Shown here one piece after another: positions 1 to 9,801 of a DNA stretch of 10,101 nucleotides. This DNA comes from Candidatus Eiseniibacteriota bacterium (GTDB taxonomy: Bacteria; Arandabacterota; Arandabacteria; JAGLYR01). The stretch spans positions 1-10,101 of the forward strand of contig JAGLYR010000061.1 in NCBI GenBank assembly GCA_023132135.1. Reading direction: 5' to 3'. The stretch's first letter is position 1. Each line of letters begins with the position of its first letter. The notes below the pieces were generated by a model, which saw nothing but the letters and a program-made list of their open reading frames with translations, had not been told where the DNA came from and did not search any database. The translations under genes were made by a program, and so were the position numbers.

Positions 1-394
1 CATAGTCGACGACGCCCTCAGGAGTGCGTTCCGGGCGGAGGATGAGGGACGTGCCGGATTCCGTGATCTGTATCTGCAGAATGCGGAGAGTCCGGAGCAG
101 GGGAAGAAGTCGTCTTCCATCTTCCGACAAAAGGATATCCAGATCCGGAATCCGGAGGCGATCACGGTGGCGTTCGCCTTGGAGACGCAGTCCCACCACG
201 GTCGTCTCCAGAATGGGACCCGTGATCCGGTCCAGCCCGGCCGCCGCGTCAACGGTATCCACTGGCGCCGCGTGCTCAAGCCCGACCGCCCCTGCGGAAG
301 GAGGCAGGCAGAGGAATCCACAGGCGGCGGACACAGCGAGTACTCGCAGCGATCGCCGCTGGAGAAGGCGAGAGATTTGAACCACGAAGAACAC
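1..394 (-). CDS. Secreted protein at usher position, 5' part only (runs off left edge)
   Basis: A minus-strand frame stays open from the chaperone stop to the window edge, giving about 131 codons of an N-terminus. The chosen GTG start at 394 lies 8-9 nt after a GGAGAA ribosome-binding site. The GTG at 403 directly abuts that site and is less likely. The first ~36 residues form a signal peptide: a basic stretch, then LRVLAVSAACGFLCLPP, ending in SAGA. After a linker comes a small domain with RLRIPDLDILLSEDGRRLLP and ILQIQITESGTSLILRP. This pattern, a short beta domain with a 'DG..LLPL' element, is like the beta modules at the N-terminus of unusual ushers or of copper-amine-oxidase-N-like domains. 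It starts 25 bases after the chaperone stop, where an outer-membrane usher would be expected. The usher assignment rests on position and secretion; the barrel itself lies outside the window. Confidence 0.55.
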   Translation of the reverse strand, partial: MFFVVQISRLLQRRSLRVLAVSAACGFLCLPPSAGAVGLEHAAPVDTVDAAAGLDRITGPILETTVVGLRLQGERHRDRLRIPDLDILLSEDGRRLLPLLRTLRILQIQITESGTSLILRPERTPEGVVDY

Positions 395-419
395 GAAGGC
401 CACTTCTCCAAACCCGGGG

Positions 420-1232
420 TTACTGACCTGGCCCCCGAAGGGTCACACGAGTCTGCCCGGCGACCGACTCTTCGAGTCGCTTGGCCGAGTAGCGCACCCG
501 CACAGCGTAGGAGGGGTCAGGGAAATCACCCTTGACCACCCTTGAAAATATCCTCTCCCCCCCGGCCAGGATGGTGTCGTCCCCAATCAGTCCTTCGGAG
601 ATGATGTCACCTGACGCATTCAGCACCTCGAAAGCTCCCATCGGGTGAAGCCGCCCGGTTCCGGTGTTCACCAGATGGGCTGTGATTGCGATACCCTCCT
701 GTGTTTTCCAGGCACTGAGGTCTTCCATCTCGAACGAGTGCTGTATCTCGCCCACTTCCCCCACGATGGGCACGAGAATCGATGTCACGATCTCGAGTCT
801 CATCGTCCGCCCGTCGGGGTCTTGGGCCTCTGTGAAGGAGCCCTCGAGAGGCTCGAGTTCAATTGTTCCCCAGTATTCTCCGGGCGGAAGGTTCTTCGGT
901 GGAATGACCGAGAGCCGGATTATCCGGCGCCCCTTGGCGGGAAGGGTGAATTCCCTGGGGTTGATCTTTGTCCAGGGGGCAAGAGAATGCTCGTCGGGAG
1001 GCACCTGCTGCAGGCCGCCGTTCTTGCCGTATATGAAGTGGCGGACGTGTATGCGGTAGCGGGCATCCTTGTCGAGCAGATTCGTCACGGCGATGGTCTC
1101 TGAAGGTCTTCCCCTGTCCAGCCGGAGCTGAACGTACGCCGGCTGGATCGAGAGCGCTGCTTCAGTTTGCCCTGGGAAAAAGAGAGCGAGGCCAATCAGG
1201 GCAACCAATCCCAAACCAAGGCCCCTTGTCAT
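420..1232 (-). CDS. PapD-like periplasmic pilus chaperone (two Ig-like domains)
   Basis: This gene encodes 270 aa. A signal peptide occupies residues 1-25 (LGLGLVALIGLALFFPGQTEA), so the mature protein should be periplasmic. Residues ~27-125 look like the first Ig domain of pilus chaperones: SIQPAYVQLRL, then TIAVTN, RYRIHVRHF, a W-x-x-INP-x-x-FTLP segment and R-x-IRLSVIPP followed by PPGEYWGTIEL. These are the usual G1-strand and P-rich features of PapD and DUF916-like proteins. Residues ~160-250 form a second beta domain (AHLVNTGTGRLHPMGAFEV, later SYAVRVRYSA). The ATG follows a strong GAGGAGG site by about 8 nt. The gene sits between a pilin-like gene and a secreted usher-position gene, which fits a role in folding and delivering pilin subunits. 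Family-specific donor-strand residues cannot be fixed by eye, so the exact subfamily is open. Confidence 0.78.
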   Translation of the reverse strand: MTRGLGLGLVALIGLALFFPGQTEAALSIQPAYVQLRLDRGRPSETIAVTNLLDKDARYRIHVRHFIYGKNGGLQQVPPDEHSLAPWTKINPREFTLPAKGRRIIRLSVIPPKNLPPGEYWGTIELEPLEGSFTEAQDPDGRTMRLEIVTSILVPIVGEVGEIQHSFEMEDLSAWKTQEGIAITAHLVNTGTGRLHPMGAFEVLNASGDIISEGLIGDDTILAGGERIFSRVVKGDFPDPSYAVRVRYSAKRLEESVAGQTRVTLRGPGQ

Positions 1233-1367
1233 CAGATGTCCTCCTCATTCCAACGATCGGATCCATCAAACCCATCAGCGGGGACCCGCTCGCTGTCCTG
1301 GCGGCGGGCCCCACGTTGATGGTCCTGTTGTTTCGAAACACCTCTGTGATCGGCGCGGAGCTGTCCC

Positions 1368-1388
1368 GGCCCGACTACAGATCGGGCC
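1368..1388 (-). promoter_or_regulatory. Intercistronic hairpin between pilin and chaperone genes
   Basis: A perfect 7-bp stem, GGCCCGA at 1368-1374 pairing with TCGGGCC at 1382-1388, encloses a 7-nt loop. It begins about 50 bases downstream of the pilin stop and has no T-tract after it on the minus strand. It is therefore more likely to pause polymerase or protect the 3' end of the pilin message than to terminate fully. Classical pilus operons use such an arrangement to make much more pilin than chaperone. The rest of the 205-base gap (1233-1437) shows only the chaperone ribosome-binding site and a short TTTCGAAA palindrome at 1331-1338. Confidence 0.4.
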
Positions 1389-1437
1389 AGGATAAACAGT
1401 ACTTCAACAGCAAACCACTTCACCAACCAAGTATGAC

Positions 1438-2001
1438 TTAGGGCAGAACGACTGAGGCGAACAACCGGACCTTGCCGTCGTACTGGCCCATGGGCTTCTC
1501 AGGATCGGGCTGGGTCCAGCCAACAGTCAGCTCGACATTCTGGCTGAAGTGCCCGGCCTGGGAGCTCTCGAACGTGACCTCCTCAGTCAGCCGGGCGGGG
1601 AACCCATCGATGTCCGTGTCGCTGAGGAAGGTGACAATGTGGTCATCGCCACCGGTCGGGTTTCCGAGCTCGGCGCTGATCGCGATACCGTCCTCCTCAT
1701 AGACCAGAATCGGAGCGACGGTCGGAGCCTCCCAGATTCCGCCCTTGTACAGATGGCTGGCGGCCACGCTGAATTTGACCTGCTCGGTGTTGGCATCAAC
1801 CCGGAACGGGATGATCCCGGTGAATTCACCAGTCTGCCAGGTACCCATGTCGACGTACGGATTTAGCGGTACGATTGCGATGTTTGGATCGATCACAATG
1901 AACACAGGCACAGTGGCATCGCCCGAGGGATCTGCAACGGCGAAAGACGCCGACGCAAGGATGAGCGAAGCCAGGCACATCATTACCAAAGTGCGCTTCA
2001 T
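1438..2001 (-). CDS. Small secreted pilin-like subunit
   Basis: The product has 187 aa. A signal peptide spans residues 1-23 (MKRTLVMMCLASLILASASF then AVA), leaving a mature protein of ~164 aa that is mainly beta. The mature N-terminus, SGDATVPVFIVIDPNIAIVP, is an extended hydrophobic stretch with alternating residues, as expected of a donor strand. The C-terminus ends in GQYDGKVRLFASVVLP, the aliphatic last strand typical of pilins. The mature part has no cysteine, unlike most FimA or spore-coat-U subunits, so it would fold without a disulfide. The ATG follows GAGAGGAG by 7 nt, the strongest ribosome-binding site in the locus, which fits a major subunit. It lies upstream of the chaperone gene. 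I recognise no named family; the pilin call comes from size, signal peptide, terminal strands and neighbours. Confidence 0.62.
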   Translation of the reverse strand: MKRTLVMMCLASLILASASFAVADPSGDATVPVFIVIDPNIAIVPLNPYVDMGTWQTGEFTGIIPFRVDANTEQVKFSVAASHLYKGGIWEAPTVAPILVYEEDGIAISAELGNPTGGDDHIVTFLSDTDIDGFPARLTEEVTFESSQAGHFSQNVELTVGWTQPDPEKPMGQYDGKVRLFASVVLP

Positions 2002-2282
2002 TGCTTTTCTCCTCTCTAGTGGGAGCCCTTACGGCCCCACGTTCCAGATTCCTTCACTCCGTGCCGATCGGGTGAGGTGTTTTCTAATGTGGGAGGGGAC
2101 GGCTGCAGTAGCTCTGTCCAGAGCCCAACCCGTACCTTCGCGGAAGGTAGGTTCACCAGGACCCAGAGGTCGAGGTGGGGATGTGCTGCGGCCGACTGCC
2201 CTCCCACGCCGGACCGTCCGGGACCTCCGCGAAATGGACCTCGGACGGCAGAATCGCCATGATTTCCCCCCTTCGGTTATCC
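2002..2282 (-). other. Gap between the two pilin-like genes, rich in short palindromes
   Basis: This 281-base gap holds several exact short inverted repeats: CCTCAC-G-GTGAGG at 2281-2293, overlapping the upstream stop codon; CCGGAC-C-GTCCGG at 2209-2221; and TACCTTC-GCG-GAAGGTA at 2133-2149. None is followed by a T-tract on the minus strand. They could be mRNA hairpins or operator sites for the pilin gene. I see no convincing sigma70 or sigma54 promoter here. Confidence 0.3.
2153..2260 (-). CDS. Possible 35-residue ORF between pilin-like genes
   Basis: An ATG at 2260 follows a good GGGGGG purine run by about 5 nt and opens 35 codons (begins MAILPSEVHFAEVP, ends STSGSW). It starts 22 bases after the stop of the upstream secreted protein, as a coupled gene would. 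It has no signal peptide, no membrane segment and no recognisable motif, and the composition is unremarkable. It could be a real microprotein, a leader peptide, or chance. The ribosome-binding site is the only positive evidence. Confidence 0.22.
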   Translation of the reverse strand: MAILPSEVHFAEVPDGPAWEGSRPQHIPTSTSGSW

Positions 2283-3272
2283 TCACGGTGAGGGTTCTTG
2301 TGCACTGACCCGGAAAACAAGTTCCGTACGGTATCTCCCGGCAGGGAGAGGTCCGTCGGACTCGAGACGGACAACGATCGGGATCTCTTCCCACGGTACC
2401 GCAGAGGCGGTTGGCGAATCGCCGCAACCGATCGTGATCGGTTGCGGCCGAAGGGTCTGGAATCCCGATCCTGTGCTCTTCCAACTCCCTCCTGTGCCGC
2501 TGGAGGGCACGCAAATCGTGAGGCTTGCCTGGGGAATCTCCCGTTCCCCGTCTTCGCTGATCAGTACTCCGGCCTGTGCCGCCCGGAGGCGCCAGGCACT
2601 GTTGCCGGTCATCAGAAGTGATGCCTGTTCGCTCTGGAGCACGCCGGTGGCGAAATCCGTGGAAATCTCGATCTCCGGGATGTCGGCGGACAGCTGCGTC
2701 CATCTCAGGATGTCAAAGCGGATTGCTACCTGCGAACAACCTGTAAGTGGCTCTCCCTCCCTGCCCAAGATGCGAGCGAGCAGCATTGCCTGGTAGGTTC
2801 CGGGAGAAGCCGCCGGGTGGAGAGCCTGCTCCAGGGCGGCCCCGATTTCGCGCCAATCGATTTCCATCTTCCACCACTCGTCAGAGCCCGGGTGAGAGGT
2901 CAGGATGCTGGGACAGAGATCGAGAATCTCCTGCAGAACAGGGGGAACGGTACTTCGGGAGTCGGCGGTTGCCAGGGGGAGGCTGTCTTCCAGGCGGCAG
3001 ACCGGCTCGGCCAATGCCACCTCGAGACGCCAGTCTTGCCTGGAGAGAACGCGAATCTCCGTTTTCCCGAGGCTGATCTCCGAATCAAGGGAACCAACGG
3101 CTGAGAAGCGACCCAGGTCGACGAACAGTGGGTCTATCACAAGGGTTGGGGATGTTGCCGGAGTTTCCGCCGGCAAGAGCAGGCAGATGCAGGCAGCAGG
3201 AGCCACAGCAGCGACGCATCGCCGAAGCGCTCTCAGAACAGTGACAGGCGGCCTCGCTCCAGAACATCTCAC
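2283..3272 (-). CDS. Secreted two-domain pilin-like or tip-adhesin-like protein
   Basis: The frame is open from 3320, but its first 16 codons overlap a terminator hairpin. The GTG at 3272, 7 nt after AGGGGG, is the better start and gives 329 aa. A signal peptide follows (VLRALRRCVAAVAPAACICL, then LLPAETPA). The mature protein appears to be two related beta domains. The first runs from TLVIDPLFVDLGRF through RQDWRLEVA to PGTYQAMLLARIL. The second runs from PEIEISTDFATGVL through NSAWRLRAA to PAGRYRTELVFRVSA. Both carry the 'WRL.(V/A)A' and 'P-x-G-x-Y' landmarks, and the IDP opening matches the neighbouring 187-aa pilin (VIDPNIAIVP). As the first gene of the fibre locus and the largest subunit, it could be the tip adhesin or a base subunit. 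Function is inferred from architecture and context. Confidence 0.58.
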   Translation of the reverse strand: MRCSGARPPVTVLRALRRCVAAVAPAACICLLLPAETPATSPTLVIDPLFVDLGRFSAVGSLDSEISLGKTEIRVLSRQDWRLEVALAEPVCRLEDSLPLATADSRSTVPPVLQEILDLCPSILTSHPGSDEWWKMEIDWREIGAALEQALHPAASPGTYQAMLLARILGREGEPLTGCSQVAIRFDILRWTQLSADIPEIEISTDFATGVLQSEQASLLMTGNSAWRLRAAQAGVLISEDGEREIPQASLTICVPSSGTGGSWKSTGSGFQTLRPQPITIGCGDSPTASAVPWEEIPIVVRLESDGPLPAGRYRTELVFRVSAQEPSP

Positions 3273-3469: not shown

Positions 3470-3676
3470 CTAGATATCACAAATGGTTCCGCACTTGCGG
3501 CAGCGAATCCTGACCCGTCCCCAAACCCTGAGCCAGAGTTCTTTCCAGCGGACTTCCACGGAACCGAAGCCGGGAGTCTTGGCAAGAAGAAGGCCACAGT
3601 TGGGGCAGCGAACCTTGTCGACAGCGCGCTCGCCATGATCCGGCCTGTCGGCAAGACAGCGGGTTCTCGTAGCCAA
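3470..3676 (-). CDS. Small two-CXXC zinc-ribbon protein (Com-like)
   Basis: The start is a TTG at 3676, 6 nt after a clear GGGGAG site; no better start exists. The 68-aa product has two zinc knuckles, CPNCG at residues 24-28 and CRKCG at 59-63. They are separated by ~30 residues containing LLAKTPGFGSVEVRW. The 'VRCPNCGLLLAK' opening and the paired CXXC ends resemble the Com family of Mu-like phages. In Mu, Com is a translational activator that binds the mom mRNA. The linker here is longer and richer in W and R than in Mu Com, so this may be a distant cousin or a general zinc ribbon. There is no phage gene nearby. It lies alone between two terminators and upstream of the fibre genes on the same strand, so regulation of those genes is possible but unproven. 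Confidence 0.68.
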   Translation of the reverse strand: MATRTRCLADRPDHGERAVDKVRCPNCGLLLAKTPGFGSVEVRWKELWLRVWGRVRIRCRKCGTICDI

Positions 3677-5372: not shown

Positions 5373-6392
5373 CTACCGCGACCGCCCAACACCATCGCGG
5401 AGGCAATCGCCGGCGATGGCACACTCGCTGCACTTGGGTGAGGTGGGGTGGCAGGTTGCCTGCCCGTGGCGGACCATCAGGCCGTTGATGGCAATCCAGT
5501 GCTCCTCCGGCAGCACATGCCGGAGCGCCGTCTCTGTCTCCTCCGGGATGTCCGTGGCAACCCAACCCAGCCGGTTGGATATGCGGTGGACGTGGGTGTC
5601 CACACAGATGGCGGGTTTTGAGAAAGCTCGCCCGAGCACGAGATTGGCCGTTTTGCGTCCCACCCCGGGCAGGGCCACGAGGTCATCCAGATTGTCCGGC
5701 ACGCGCCCGCCGTGGTTGGCCACGAGAATTCCGGCGATGTTCTTGATTGTGCGAGCCTTCTCCCGGTAAAAGCCGGCGGGGTAGATGGTCTTGGCGATCC
5801 TGGACGGGGGGAGAGCGGCCATTTGCGCCGGGGTCCGGGCCAGCCTGAAGAGACGCTTGCCTGCCGGATCCGTGACCTCGTCCTTTGTCCTGAGCGAGAT
5901 CACGCACGTGATCAGGGAGCGGAAGGGTTCCCTCGACTTGCAGACCCTGGGACCGGAGTAGAGGTCCGAGAGAATCCTGGCGACCCGTTCAGCGTTCGTC
6001 CGGCGGAGAAGATCAAAGGGGTTGAAATCGGGTTTAGCCTGGAAATGAAAGAGGTGGGTTCTGCAACGGCAGTCGGAAGAGCCGAAGCCCGGAATCCCGG
6101 TTGTGTGCGACCGCTTGGCCAGTCGGGAAGCCAAGCGGCATTCCATCGACCGGGAGTGTGTGGAATAGCGAAACACCCGGCGGATGGCGGCATGGCGCGT
6201 GAGGGAATCGATGTGCCAGTGCTGCTTCTTTTCGGCCGAGAGGTGTCGCCGGATGCGGGCTTCCAGACCATTCATCGCCGAACCGACGTAGAGGTAGTAG
6301 CCCGCGGCGAAGTCCCGTTCCCGTCCCGCGACGCGTATCCGGCGGCCCTTGGGGAGCCGGAGGAGAAGACAGTAGATGCCGGGGTCTTTCAT
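5373..6392 (-). CDS. GIY-YIG (DUF123) nuclease domain fused to endonuclease III
   Basis: From the ATG at 6392 the protein is 339 aa. The frame is open to a TTG at 6440, but the extra 16 codons are partly 7-nt repeat sequence, and the DUF123 domain begins right after this Met (KDPGIYCLLLRLPKG). Residues ~1-120 are a DUF123/COG1833 domain (GYYLYVGSAMNGLEARIRRH, HWHID). The rest is a full-length endonuclease III: SLRTKDEV in the damage-binding region; helix-hairpin-helix LPGVGRKTANLVLG with the catalytic Lys; VDTHVHRISNRLG with the catalytic Asp; and a C-terminal C-X6-C-X2-C-X5-C [4Fe-4S] loop (CHPTSPKCSECAIAGDC). It should be a bifunctional glycosylase/AP lyase of base-excision repair for oxidised pyrimidines. 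The role of the DUF123 part is unknown. All endonuclease III catalytic residues are present. Confidence 0.9.
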   Translation of the reverse strand: MKDPGIYCLLLRLPKGRRIRVAGRERDFAAGYYLYVGSAMNGLEARIRRHLSAEKKQHWHIDSLTRHAAIRRVFRYSTHSRSMECRLASRLAKRSHTTGIPGFGSSDCRCRTHLFHFQAKPDFNPFDLLRRTNAERVARILSDLYSGPRVCKSREPFRSLITCVISLRTKDEVTDPAGKRLFRLARTPAQMAALPPSRIAKTIYPAGFYREKARTIKNIAGILVANHGGRVPDNLDDLVALPGVGRKTANLVLGRAFSKPAICVDTHVHRISNRLGWVATDIPEETETALRHVLPEEHWIAINGLMVRHGQATCHPTSPKCSECAIAGDCLRDGVGRSR

Positions 6393-6411
6393 GGCCGCGG
6401 TTGTTTCTCCC

Positions 6412-6427
6412 GATTTACGATTTACCA
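6412..6427. repeat. Second copy of the GATTTAC heptamer repeat
   Basis: Two GATTTAC units followed by CA repeat the string seen at 4117-4132. The copy lies just upstream of the preferred start of the DUF123-endonuclease III gene, inside the possible N-terminal extension of that frame. Confidence 0.55.
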
Positions 6428-6440
6428 GATTGCGCATCAA

Positions 6441-8511: not shown

Positions 8512-9801
8512 ATGCGGAGGCAGTCTGTCGCAGTGTTGCTGACGCTGTTTGGGGTGACAGTGTCTCTGTCCGCCGGGTGTGGGGATGACGAGAATGGATT
8601 GAAGCCCGACTCTACCCCACCGGCAACAGTGACAGACCTTTCGGTCGCTTCAACAACGGACTCATCGGCCACGTTGGCCTGGAGTGCCTCGGGCGACGAT
8701 GGGATGGCAGGAGCTGCAACTGAGTACGACATTCGCTACTCAGCCACTTCTCTGACAGAAGCAATGTGGGATGCCGCGACTCAGGTCGACTCCACGCCCG
8801 CACCCAAGACAGCCGGAATGCCTGAGACGCTGGCCGTGACTGGTCTGACCGGCAAGGCCAGCGTGTACTTCGCGCTTAAGGTGGCGGATGAGGTGCCAAA
8901 CTGGTCTGGCTTGTCAAATGTGGCGAGCGGAACGATGTTACCGGAGGATATGGTGTTGATTCCTTCTGGAACATTCACGATGGGCAGTGACTCGGATTGG
9001 GCGATTTTCAACGAGCGACCTCAGCATCATCCGTACATCAGTGCGTTCTGGATGGATCTCTACGAAGTCACAAATGCTGAGTATGCGGACGCGCTGAACT
9101 GGGCGCTTTCAAACGGCTATGCCCACTGGAACGGCTCGAACATTGTGAAACCGTCTTCGGGCCATATGATTTACCTGGAAATCAGCGACCCGGATTGCCG
9201 GATCGGCCCTTTGGGCTCGGGGTTTTCGGTGGAAGCCGGGTATGGCGATCATCCTGTGGTGGAGGTGTCGTGGTATGGTGCGGCGGCGTACTGTAACTGG
9301 CGGAGTGTGAGGGAGGGCATTGCTCCGTGCTACGACACGGGACCAGGGTGGCGATGCGACTCTGGGGTAGGTGGCTATCGGCTTCCAACGGAGGCGGAGT
9401 GGGAGAAGGGGGCGCGGGGATCGTTGGATGGCCGGACGTATCCGTGGGGATCCACGGTGCCGACCTGCGGGAGGGTGAACGCCCACATTGGCGGTGTATA
9501 CTGTGTTGGAGAGACTGCTCCTGTGGGTTCGTACGAGTCAGGTCTGTCTCCATACGGGTTGTACGACATGCTGGGGAATGTGTATGAGTGGTGCAACGAT
9601 TGGTATTCAGAGAGCTACTACGCGACGGTTGAGGCGAGTGGGACGGATCCTCGGGGGCCACTAAGCGGAAACTATCGGACAATGCGCGGCGGCGGGTGGA
9701 GCAGCGACGAGTATAACCTGGGCTGCGTCACGCGGCACGTCACCGCCGCCCCCGGTGACACGTACTCCTCGGCTGGCTTTCGCGGTGTCCGCAGTCCGTA
9801 G
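8512..9801 (+). CDS. Lipoprotein with Fn3 domain and FGE-sulfatase-like domain
   Basis: The ATG follows AGAGGAGG by 6-7 nt and gives 429 aa. A lipoprotein signal ends at LSAGC (Cys23). The -3 residue is Ser rather than Leu, so the lipobox is slightly off. Residues ~36-140 are a fibronectin type III domain (PPATVTDLSVAS, ATLAWSASGDDG, YDIRYSA, VYFALKVADEVPNWSGLSN), a style common in surface proteins of FCB-type bacteria. Residues ~145-429 are an FGE-sulfatase (SUMF1/DUF323) fold: MVLIPSGTFTMGS, FWMDLYEVTNAEYADAL, HPVVEVSWYGAAAYCNW, GYRLPTEAEWEKGARG, LYDMLGNVYEWCNDW, MRGGGW and GFRGVRS at the end. True formylglycine-generating enzymes have two copper-binding Cys near the C-terminal 'GFR' region; here it reads GFRGVRS without Cys, so catalysis of that kind is unlikely. 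It probably acts as a cell-surface binding or structural protein. Confidence 0.9.
   Translation: MRRQSVAVLLTLFGVTVSLSAGCGDDENGLKPDSTPPATVTDLSVASTTDSSATLAWSASGDDGMAGAATEYDIRYSATSLTEAMWDAATQVDSTPAPKTAGMPETLAVTGLTGKASVYFALKVADEVPNWSGLSNVASGTMLPEDMVLIPSGTFTMGSDSDWAIFNERPQHHPYISAFWMDLYEVTNAEYADALNWALSNGYAHWNGSNIVKPSSGHMIYLEISDPDCRIGPLGSGFSVEAGYGDHPVVEVSWYGAAAYCNWRSVREGIAPCYDTGPGWRCDSGVGGYRLPTEAEWEKGARGSLDGRTYPWGSTVPTCGRVNAHIGGVYCVGETAPVGSYESGLSPYGLYDMLGNVYEWCNDWYSESYYATVEASGTDPRGPLSGNYRTMRGGGWSSDEYNLGCVTRHVTAAPGDTYSSAGFRGVRSP

Follow-up and report, generated by a model that had tools for sequence, protein, structure and literature searches.

Introduction

Chaperone-usher (CU) pili have been described from Proteobacteria, Cyanobacteria and Deinococcus-Thermus (PMC4654587). 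The described systems most relevant here are the archaic (sigma) class, such as Csu of Acinetobacter and CupE of Pseudomonas, and the alternative (alpha) class, such as Ecp with its chaperone EcpB and CFA/I with CfaA. A proline in strand D1 of the chaperone, Pro59 in CsuC, is reported to be invariant across the CU chaperone superfamily, and the carboxylate anchor Arg89 (CsuC/EcpB numbering) is described as the trait that best characterises the non-classical chaperones (PMC4654587).

Here we analyse four genes on a contig of Candidatus Eiseniibacteriota bacterium (JAGLYR010000061.1, assembly GCA_023132135.1). The window, that is, the whole stretch analysed, is one complete contig of 10,101 bp (C304 of the source genome, G000), and the source assembly comprises 3.4 Mb in 345 contigs. 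Four successive minus-strand open reading frames (ORFs), P0004, P0003, P0002 and P0001, run from position 3272 to the left contig edge, and none of the four products rises above cut-off in Pfam or NCBIfam. With a probability of about 80%, we consider that the window encodes a divergent, widespread and so far unnamed chaperone-usher-type fibre system.

Results

A PapD-like chaperone related to the archaic class

A profile of the P0002 family (six members) aligned over 237 columns with a profile of eight archaic CU chaperones taken from beside Pfam-recognised ushers (hhalign 99.1%, E = 8.7e-19), and a profile of the window lineage pair (two members) likewise matched archaic CU chaperones (97.7%, E = 1.3e-12). 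Taken singly, the archaic chaperones scored 54-90 (n = 8), against 25 for the best of 120 unrelated ORFs. The combined chaperone profile matched CsuC (E = 2.8e-13) and EcpB (E = 1.8e-4).

The AlphaFold2 (AF2) model of P0002 has a predicted local distance difference test score (pLDDT) of 72 and a predicted template modelling score of 0.49. Ranked over the whole length of the model, WxLIP of Enterococcus faecium comes first (Z = 13.5, at a loose root-mean-square deviation (rmsd) of 8.7 Å), followed by EcpB (Z = 13.0, rmsd 3.4 Å over 173 residues in VIA-align) and then by CsuC, FimC, Caf1M and YadV, all with Z about 12. Comparable Z scores over ~100 residues are also obtained with single immunoglobulin (Ig) domains from unrelated enzymes, so it is the whole-length matches that are informative. 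Judged by profiles and predicted fold, P0002 is a PapD-like chaperone homologous to archaic CU chaperones and a member of their superfamily.

The match of the combined profile to CsuC also fixes the residue equivalences between P0002 and CsuC. The superfamily proline is kept in P0002 as Pro92. The three key positions hold Pro, Arg and Tyr in every one of the archaic chaperones (8/8). Across 55 segments of the P0002 family, Trp is the commonest residue at the Arg89 position (18 segments) and Arg occurs in only three, among them the chaperone of genome G145; at the position of the anchor tyrosine (CsuC Tyr196/EcpB Tyr169), P0002 has Thr and P0014 has Val. As for the classical anchor pair (Arg20/Lys139 of Caf1M), inspection by eye revealed no conserved pair, the direct comparison with FimC being too weak to align.

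A truncated usher-like gene and its full-length relatives

P0001 covers only the first ~130 residues of a putative usher and, since the window is a whole contig, cannot be extended leftward within the assembly; the remainder is known through relatives elsewhere. P0001 is 43% identical over 46 amino acids (aa) to the N-terminus of a 1013-aa usher-like protein of genome G233, which is encoded at 8752-11793 of locus L137 and adjoins relatives of P0003 and P0002 in the same order as in the window, and P0001 is the best own-genome match to a two-sequence usher profile (E = 7.5e-7). From N- to C-terminus, the full-length relatives P0011 and P0013 consist of a Cu_amine_oxidN1-like domain, a barrel-like region and two SdrD_B/CarboxypepD_reg-like domains, with a plug-like segment (TVELWVN...) embedded in the barrel-like region of both.

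A two-sequence hidden Markov model covering the first 800 residues of the P0011/P0013 lineage was run against every neighbouring ORF together with the references. Outside itself it matched, in each case at the plug region, the archaic ushers L118, L124, L114 and L104u as well as FimD and HtrE; a further match was L094, an unclassified 882-aa usher-like protein. The E-values range from 0.004 to 0.8, and the evidence lies in the pattern of matches, not in single values. A nine-sequence usher-like profile aligned with archaic ushers over 506 columns, from the plug segment to the C-terminal domains (score 104, E = 2.3e-11), against scores of 14-18 for reversed, column-shuffled and secretin controls. 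After removal of the C-terminal domains, P0011 and P0013 still matched the usher plug region (score 52.9, E = 1.7e-5). There was no significant profile match between the usher-like N-terminal domain and the N-domains of archaic ushers, or between the two-sequence profile and EcpC, and neither P0011, P0013 nor the usher-like protein on contig C172 of the source genome matched Pfam Usher up to E = 1. A bridge to recognised ushers is offered by the G145 chaperone, which belongs to the P0002 family (E = 3e-16) and abuts a Pfam usher. P0001 thus probably begins a divergent usher: the homology is seen in its full-length relatives and extends to P0001 through its N-terminus and its neighbours.

Four further chaperone-adjacent proteins of 770-850 aa (L074, L079, L081 and L091) have usher-like C-terminal domains and no recognisable plug, and L081 has a T2SS-T3SS_pil_N-like N-terminus.

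A duplicated two-domain protein and a putative subunit

When the P0004 family (six members) was split at its midpoint, the two halves resembled each other as profiles (94%, E = 1.4e-7, score 50.9), and 60 column-shuffled controls scored at most 17.6; by this profile comparison P0004 is a true internal duplication, beyond chance. Relatives of P0004 occur in G034, G053 and G328 and on contig C179 of the source genome itself. The preliminary description, a reading of the window from its sequence, had assigned both halves the landmarks W-R-L and P-x-G-x-Y. W-R-L indeed occurs in both, whereas the terminal motif reads S-P-G-T-Y in half 1 and P-A-G-R-Y in half 2, and of this motif only G-x-Y, once per half, is kept by every family member. 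The P0004 halves matched none of P0003, FimA and EcpA. The same description had called P0004 a tandem-domain tip subunit: the tandem duplication holds, and from its internal repeat and its operon position we place P0004 as a putative tip or minor subunit.

P0003 shares 43% identity with its positional counterpart in the operon of G233. Its only cysteine, C9, lies in the signal peptide, so that the mature form is cysteine-free, as is that of the G233 relative, and the conserved pilin cysteines of the archaic class are absent from mature P0003. An alternating-hydrophobic N-terminal segment could serve as a donor strand by analogy with CsuA/B (PMC4654587; Table 1), and the C-terminus carries P-x-G-x-Y plus a strand. 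Its position, the donor-strand-like N-terminus and the terminal G-x-Y strand suggest that P0003 is a pilin, which is the weakest assignment of the four. An apparent enrichment of pilins among the P0003 matches was due to signal peptides and disappeared once these had been removed.

Related operons, distribution and a secretin-linked arrangement

The 60 relatives sampled include seven genomes of the same class and none of the same family. A P0002 search returned distant relatives in other genomes, and operons of this type recur in their surroundings. The closest locus is that of G233 (contig JAQUKH010000028.1, metagenome-assembled genome STD1_102), whose chaperone is 36% identical to P0002; a scan of the collection with this close chaperone pair returned that one locus and no viral contig. 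In G034, a P0004-like gene (319 aa), a pilin-like gene (262 aa), a chaperone (274 aa) and a 1000-aa outer-membrane protein follow one another in the same four-gene order as here. A seven-chaperone profile detected the family in 57 of 337 genomes, belonging to 52 of the 300 genera sampled. Pfam Usher (PF00577) had matches in 3 of the 193 genomes that made up an overlapping sample, so that surveys relying on standard models overlook most of this family. The source genome has another, separate set of pilin, chaperone and usher-like genes (L014, C172, 1327-6095; 178 aa, chaperone, 886 aa).

The source genome also holds loci in which a chaperone stands beside a secretin. In L090 (C179, 5515-10980) a P0004-like gene (348 aa) comes first, followed by a pilin-like gene (268 aa), a tandem chaperone of four Ig domains (560 aa) and, last, a secretin (PF00263, E = 1e-37), and L089 (C6, 204-3965) combines a tandem chaperone (579 aa) with a secretin (PF00263, E = 5.6e-41). 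With five secretins in this 3.4-Mb genome, the chance of one lying within ~3 kb of a given gene is near 1%. Comparable tandem-chaperone/secretin sets occur in G053, G328, G416 (one genus), G425, G199 and G006, and G330 has a looser set with the secretin ~2.5 kb off on the other strand; P0004-type and pilin-like genes are present in several such loci. As far as they were read, the tandem-chaperone loci of G217 and G041 carried no secretin, the contig of G041 stopping at the chaperone itself, and in G214 an ORF of similar length to the tandem chaperones stands beside an usher-like protein. Besides L090 and L089, the loci with tandem four-Ig PapD-like chaperones next to secretins include L016, L138, L139, L149, L189 and L190. 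In the open literature searched, we found no description of either the P0002-type clade or the chaperone-secretin loci.

Layout of the locus and neighbouring genes

The gaps P0004/P0003, P0003/P0002 and P0002/P0001 measure 281, 205 and 16 bp, with no terminator-like site between the four genes, and each product starts with a signal-peptide-like segment, as read from the sequence by eye. Coordinates are collected in Table 1.

Table 1. Features of the fibre locus (positions in the window)
Feature	Position	Strand	Description
P0004	2283..3272	-	Two-domain secreted protein; 329 aa with the GTG start given here, 345 aa with a preceding GTG; putative tip/minor subunit
Trp codon of W-R-L, P0004 half 1	3030..3032	-	
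Trp codon of W-R-L, P0004 half 2	2592..2594	-	Invariant in the family
P0003	1438..2001	-	Putative major subunit of the fibre; 187 aa, without Cys once mature
Candidate donor strand ATVPVFIVID	1888..1917	-	Alternating-hydrophobic N-terminal segment of P0003, read from the sequence
P0002	420..1232	-	PapD-like two-Ig periplasmic chaperone, 270 aa
Pro92 codon	957..959	-	Equivalent to CsuC Pro59 (alignment, column counts)
Trp121 codon	870..872	-	Takes the place of Arg89, the non-classical anchor in CsuC/EcpB
P0001	1..403	-	N-terminus of a putative divergent usher-like outer-membrane protein; signal segment and N-terminal domain; open at the contig edge

Elsewhere in the window, a 68-aa ORF (3470-3676, minus strand) has two Cys-x-x-Cys pairs, which by eye resemble a zinc ribbon and recall the Com-type proteins of phage Mu. 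At 5373-6440 (minus strand), a DUF123 domain (GIY-YIG-like) is fused to an endonuclease III (Nth) domain in one gene. The lipoprotein-like product of 8512-9801 (plus strand) has an FGE-sulfatase domain, a weak fn3-like stretch (E = 0.008, below the Pfam cut-off) and sub-threshold similarity to GldK/PorK.

Discussion

If the window encodes a chaperone-usher-type system, how would its fibre be built? The four products would enter the periplasm via Sec, to judge from their signal-like N-termini. P0002, whose homology to CU chaperones is shown, would hold P0003, and probably P0004 too, by lending a beta-strand. P0001 would act as the outer-membrane usher that takes up chaperone-subunit complexes and lets the fibre out, the following subunit's N-terminal strand taking the place of the chaperone strand. 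P0004 may sit at the tip or act as a minor subunit.

Several results weigh against this interpretation. Pfam Usher (PF00577) has no match above threshold in this genome, and an assembly-wide search for the rest of the P0001 gene turned up nothing beyond the window itself and the separate system on C172. With the C-terminal domains removed, the nine-member usher-like set drops to a score of 22, near the shuffled maximum of 18, and its distant members are therefore usher-like by C-terminal domains and position only. The AF2 model of P0003, built with one relative, reached a pLDDT of 35 and was discarded; mature P0003, compared with 212 ORFs, matched nothing above background save its G233 relative, and no known pilin; and among a further 193 genomes G233 was the sole carrier of a P0003 relative. 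In the alignment, Arg89 and the anchor Tyr of the archaic and alternative classes are absent from P0002, which is therefore placed in none of the three known classes and must hold the subunit C-terminus in a different way. With the known subunit anchor lost, the way in which chaperones of this kind hold their subunits can be tested directly.

Could the same genes encode something other than a fibre? P0002 might be a WxLIP (DUF916/DUF3324)-type protein that binds the W-R-L protein P0004 in a WxL-like surface complex. WxLIP is the best whole-length match of the AF2 model, the family profile ranks it marginally ahead of EcpB (E = 0.023 and E = 0.073, respectively), tandem relatives show weak Pfam WxLIP matches, and each half of P0004 has a W-x-L. 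However, Pfam finds no WxL domain (PF13731) in P0004 and no WxLIP_PGBD in P0002 up to E = 1, the model superposes far more loosely on WxLIP than on EcpB, an usher-type partner lies in the operon, and archaic chaperones give a much stronger profile match; we therefore regard a WxL-like complex as unlikely. More improbable still is that P0001 and its relatives are a porin or scaffold, a barrel with carboxypeptidase-regulatory-like domains that merely anchors or displays small proteins and polymerises nothing. Such a role would fit the full-length relatives in that they match Cu_amine_oxidN1, porin, SdrD_B and CarboxypepD_reg instead of Pfam usher, but their plug and C-terminal domains align with those of ushers in the same order, and the controls do not reproduce this.

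The chaperone-usher-type reading also has to be set beside the chaperone-secretin loci. These would, if functional, show a second export route for such fibres. Tentatively, and with rather more doubt than belief, we suggest that a tandem chaperone and a secretin form a pathway of usher-less donor-strand fibre assembly, and that the usher-type system of the window evolved from or alongside it.

Most of what the preliminary description proposed has survived. The four consecutive minus-strand genes exist as claimed, with signal-like N-termini; the two-Ig PapD-like chaperone is borne out by the profile-profile, EcpB fold and CsuC matches; the left gene, proposed as an usher, finds support in the G233 protein and in the plug and C-terminal domains of its relatives; and a non-model phylum fits the scarcity of close genomes in our sample. 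Its divergent chaperone-usher lineage stands as regards the chaperone and the usher-like gene, with P0003 a putative pilin and P0004 a putative tip or minor subunit. Its cysteine-free pilin-like protein is cysteine-free when mature, but the incomplete-Ig fold gained no support from modelling or outside matches. It had overlooked the breadth of the chaperone family, the replacement of the archaic/alternative anchor residues by Trp121 and Thr, and the secretin-linked sister arrangement in the same genome (C179, C6).

Among known systems, the locus resembles archaic CU systems in its homologous chaperone, in the plug and C-terminal domains of its usher-like relatives, in the alternating-hydrophobic subunit N-terminus and in the gene order subunit-chaperone-usher. 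It differs from them in a chaperone without Arg89 and Tyr196, a subunit without the conserved Cys pair, usher-like relatives with a Cu-amine-oxidase-N1-like N-domain and SdrD/CarboxypepD_reg-like C-domains that fall below the Pfam Usher cut-off, and a two-domain protein of a new family that comes first in the operon. From the alternative class comes the closest chaperone fold among CU systems, that of EcpB, whose Arg89 and Tyr169 are absent here and whose usher EcpC gave no significant match. WxLIP of the Gram-positive WxL clusters shares a similar two-Ig fold and W-x-L motifs in the partner, but those clusters are a Gram-positive wall system without an usher, and the window locus has an usher-like gene and no detected WxL domain.

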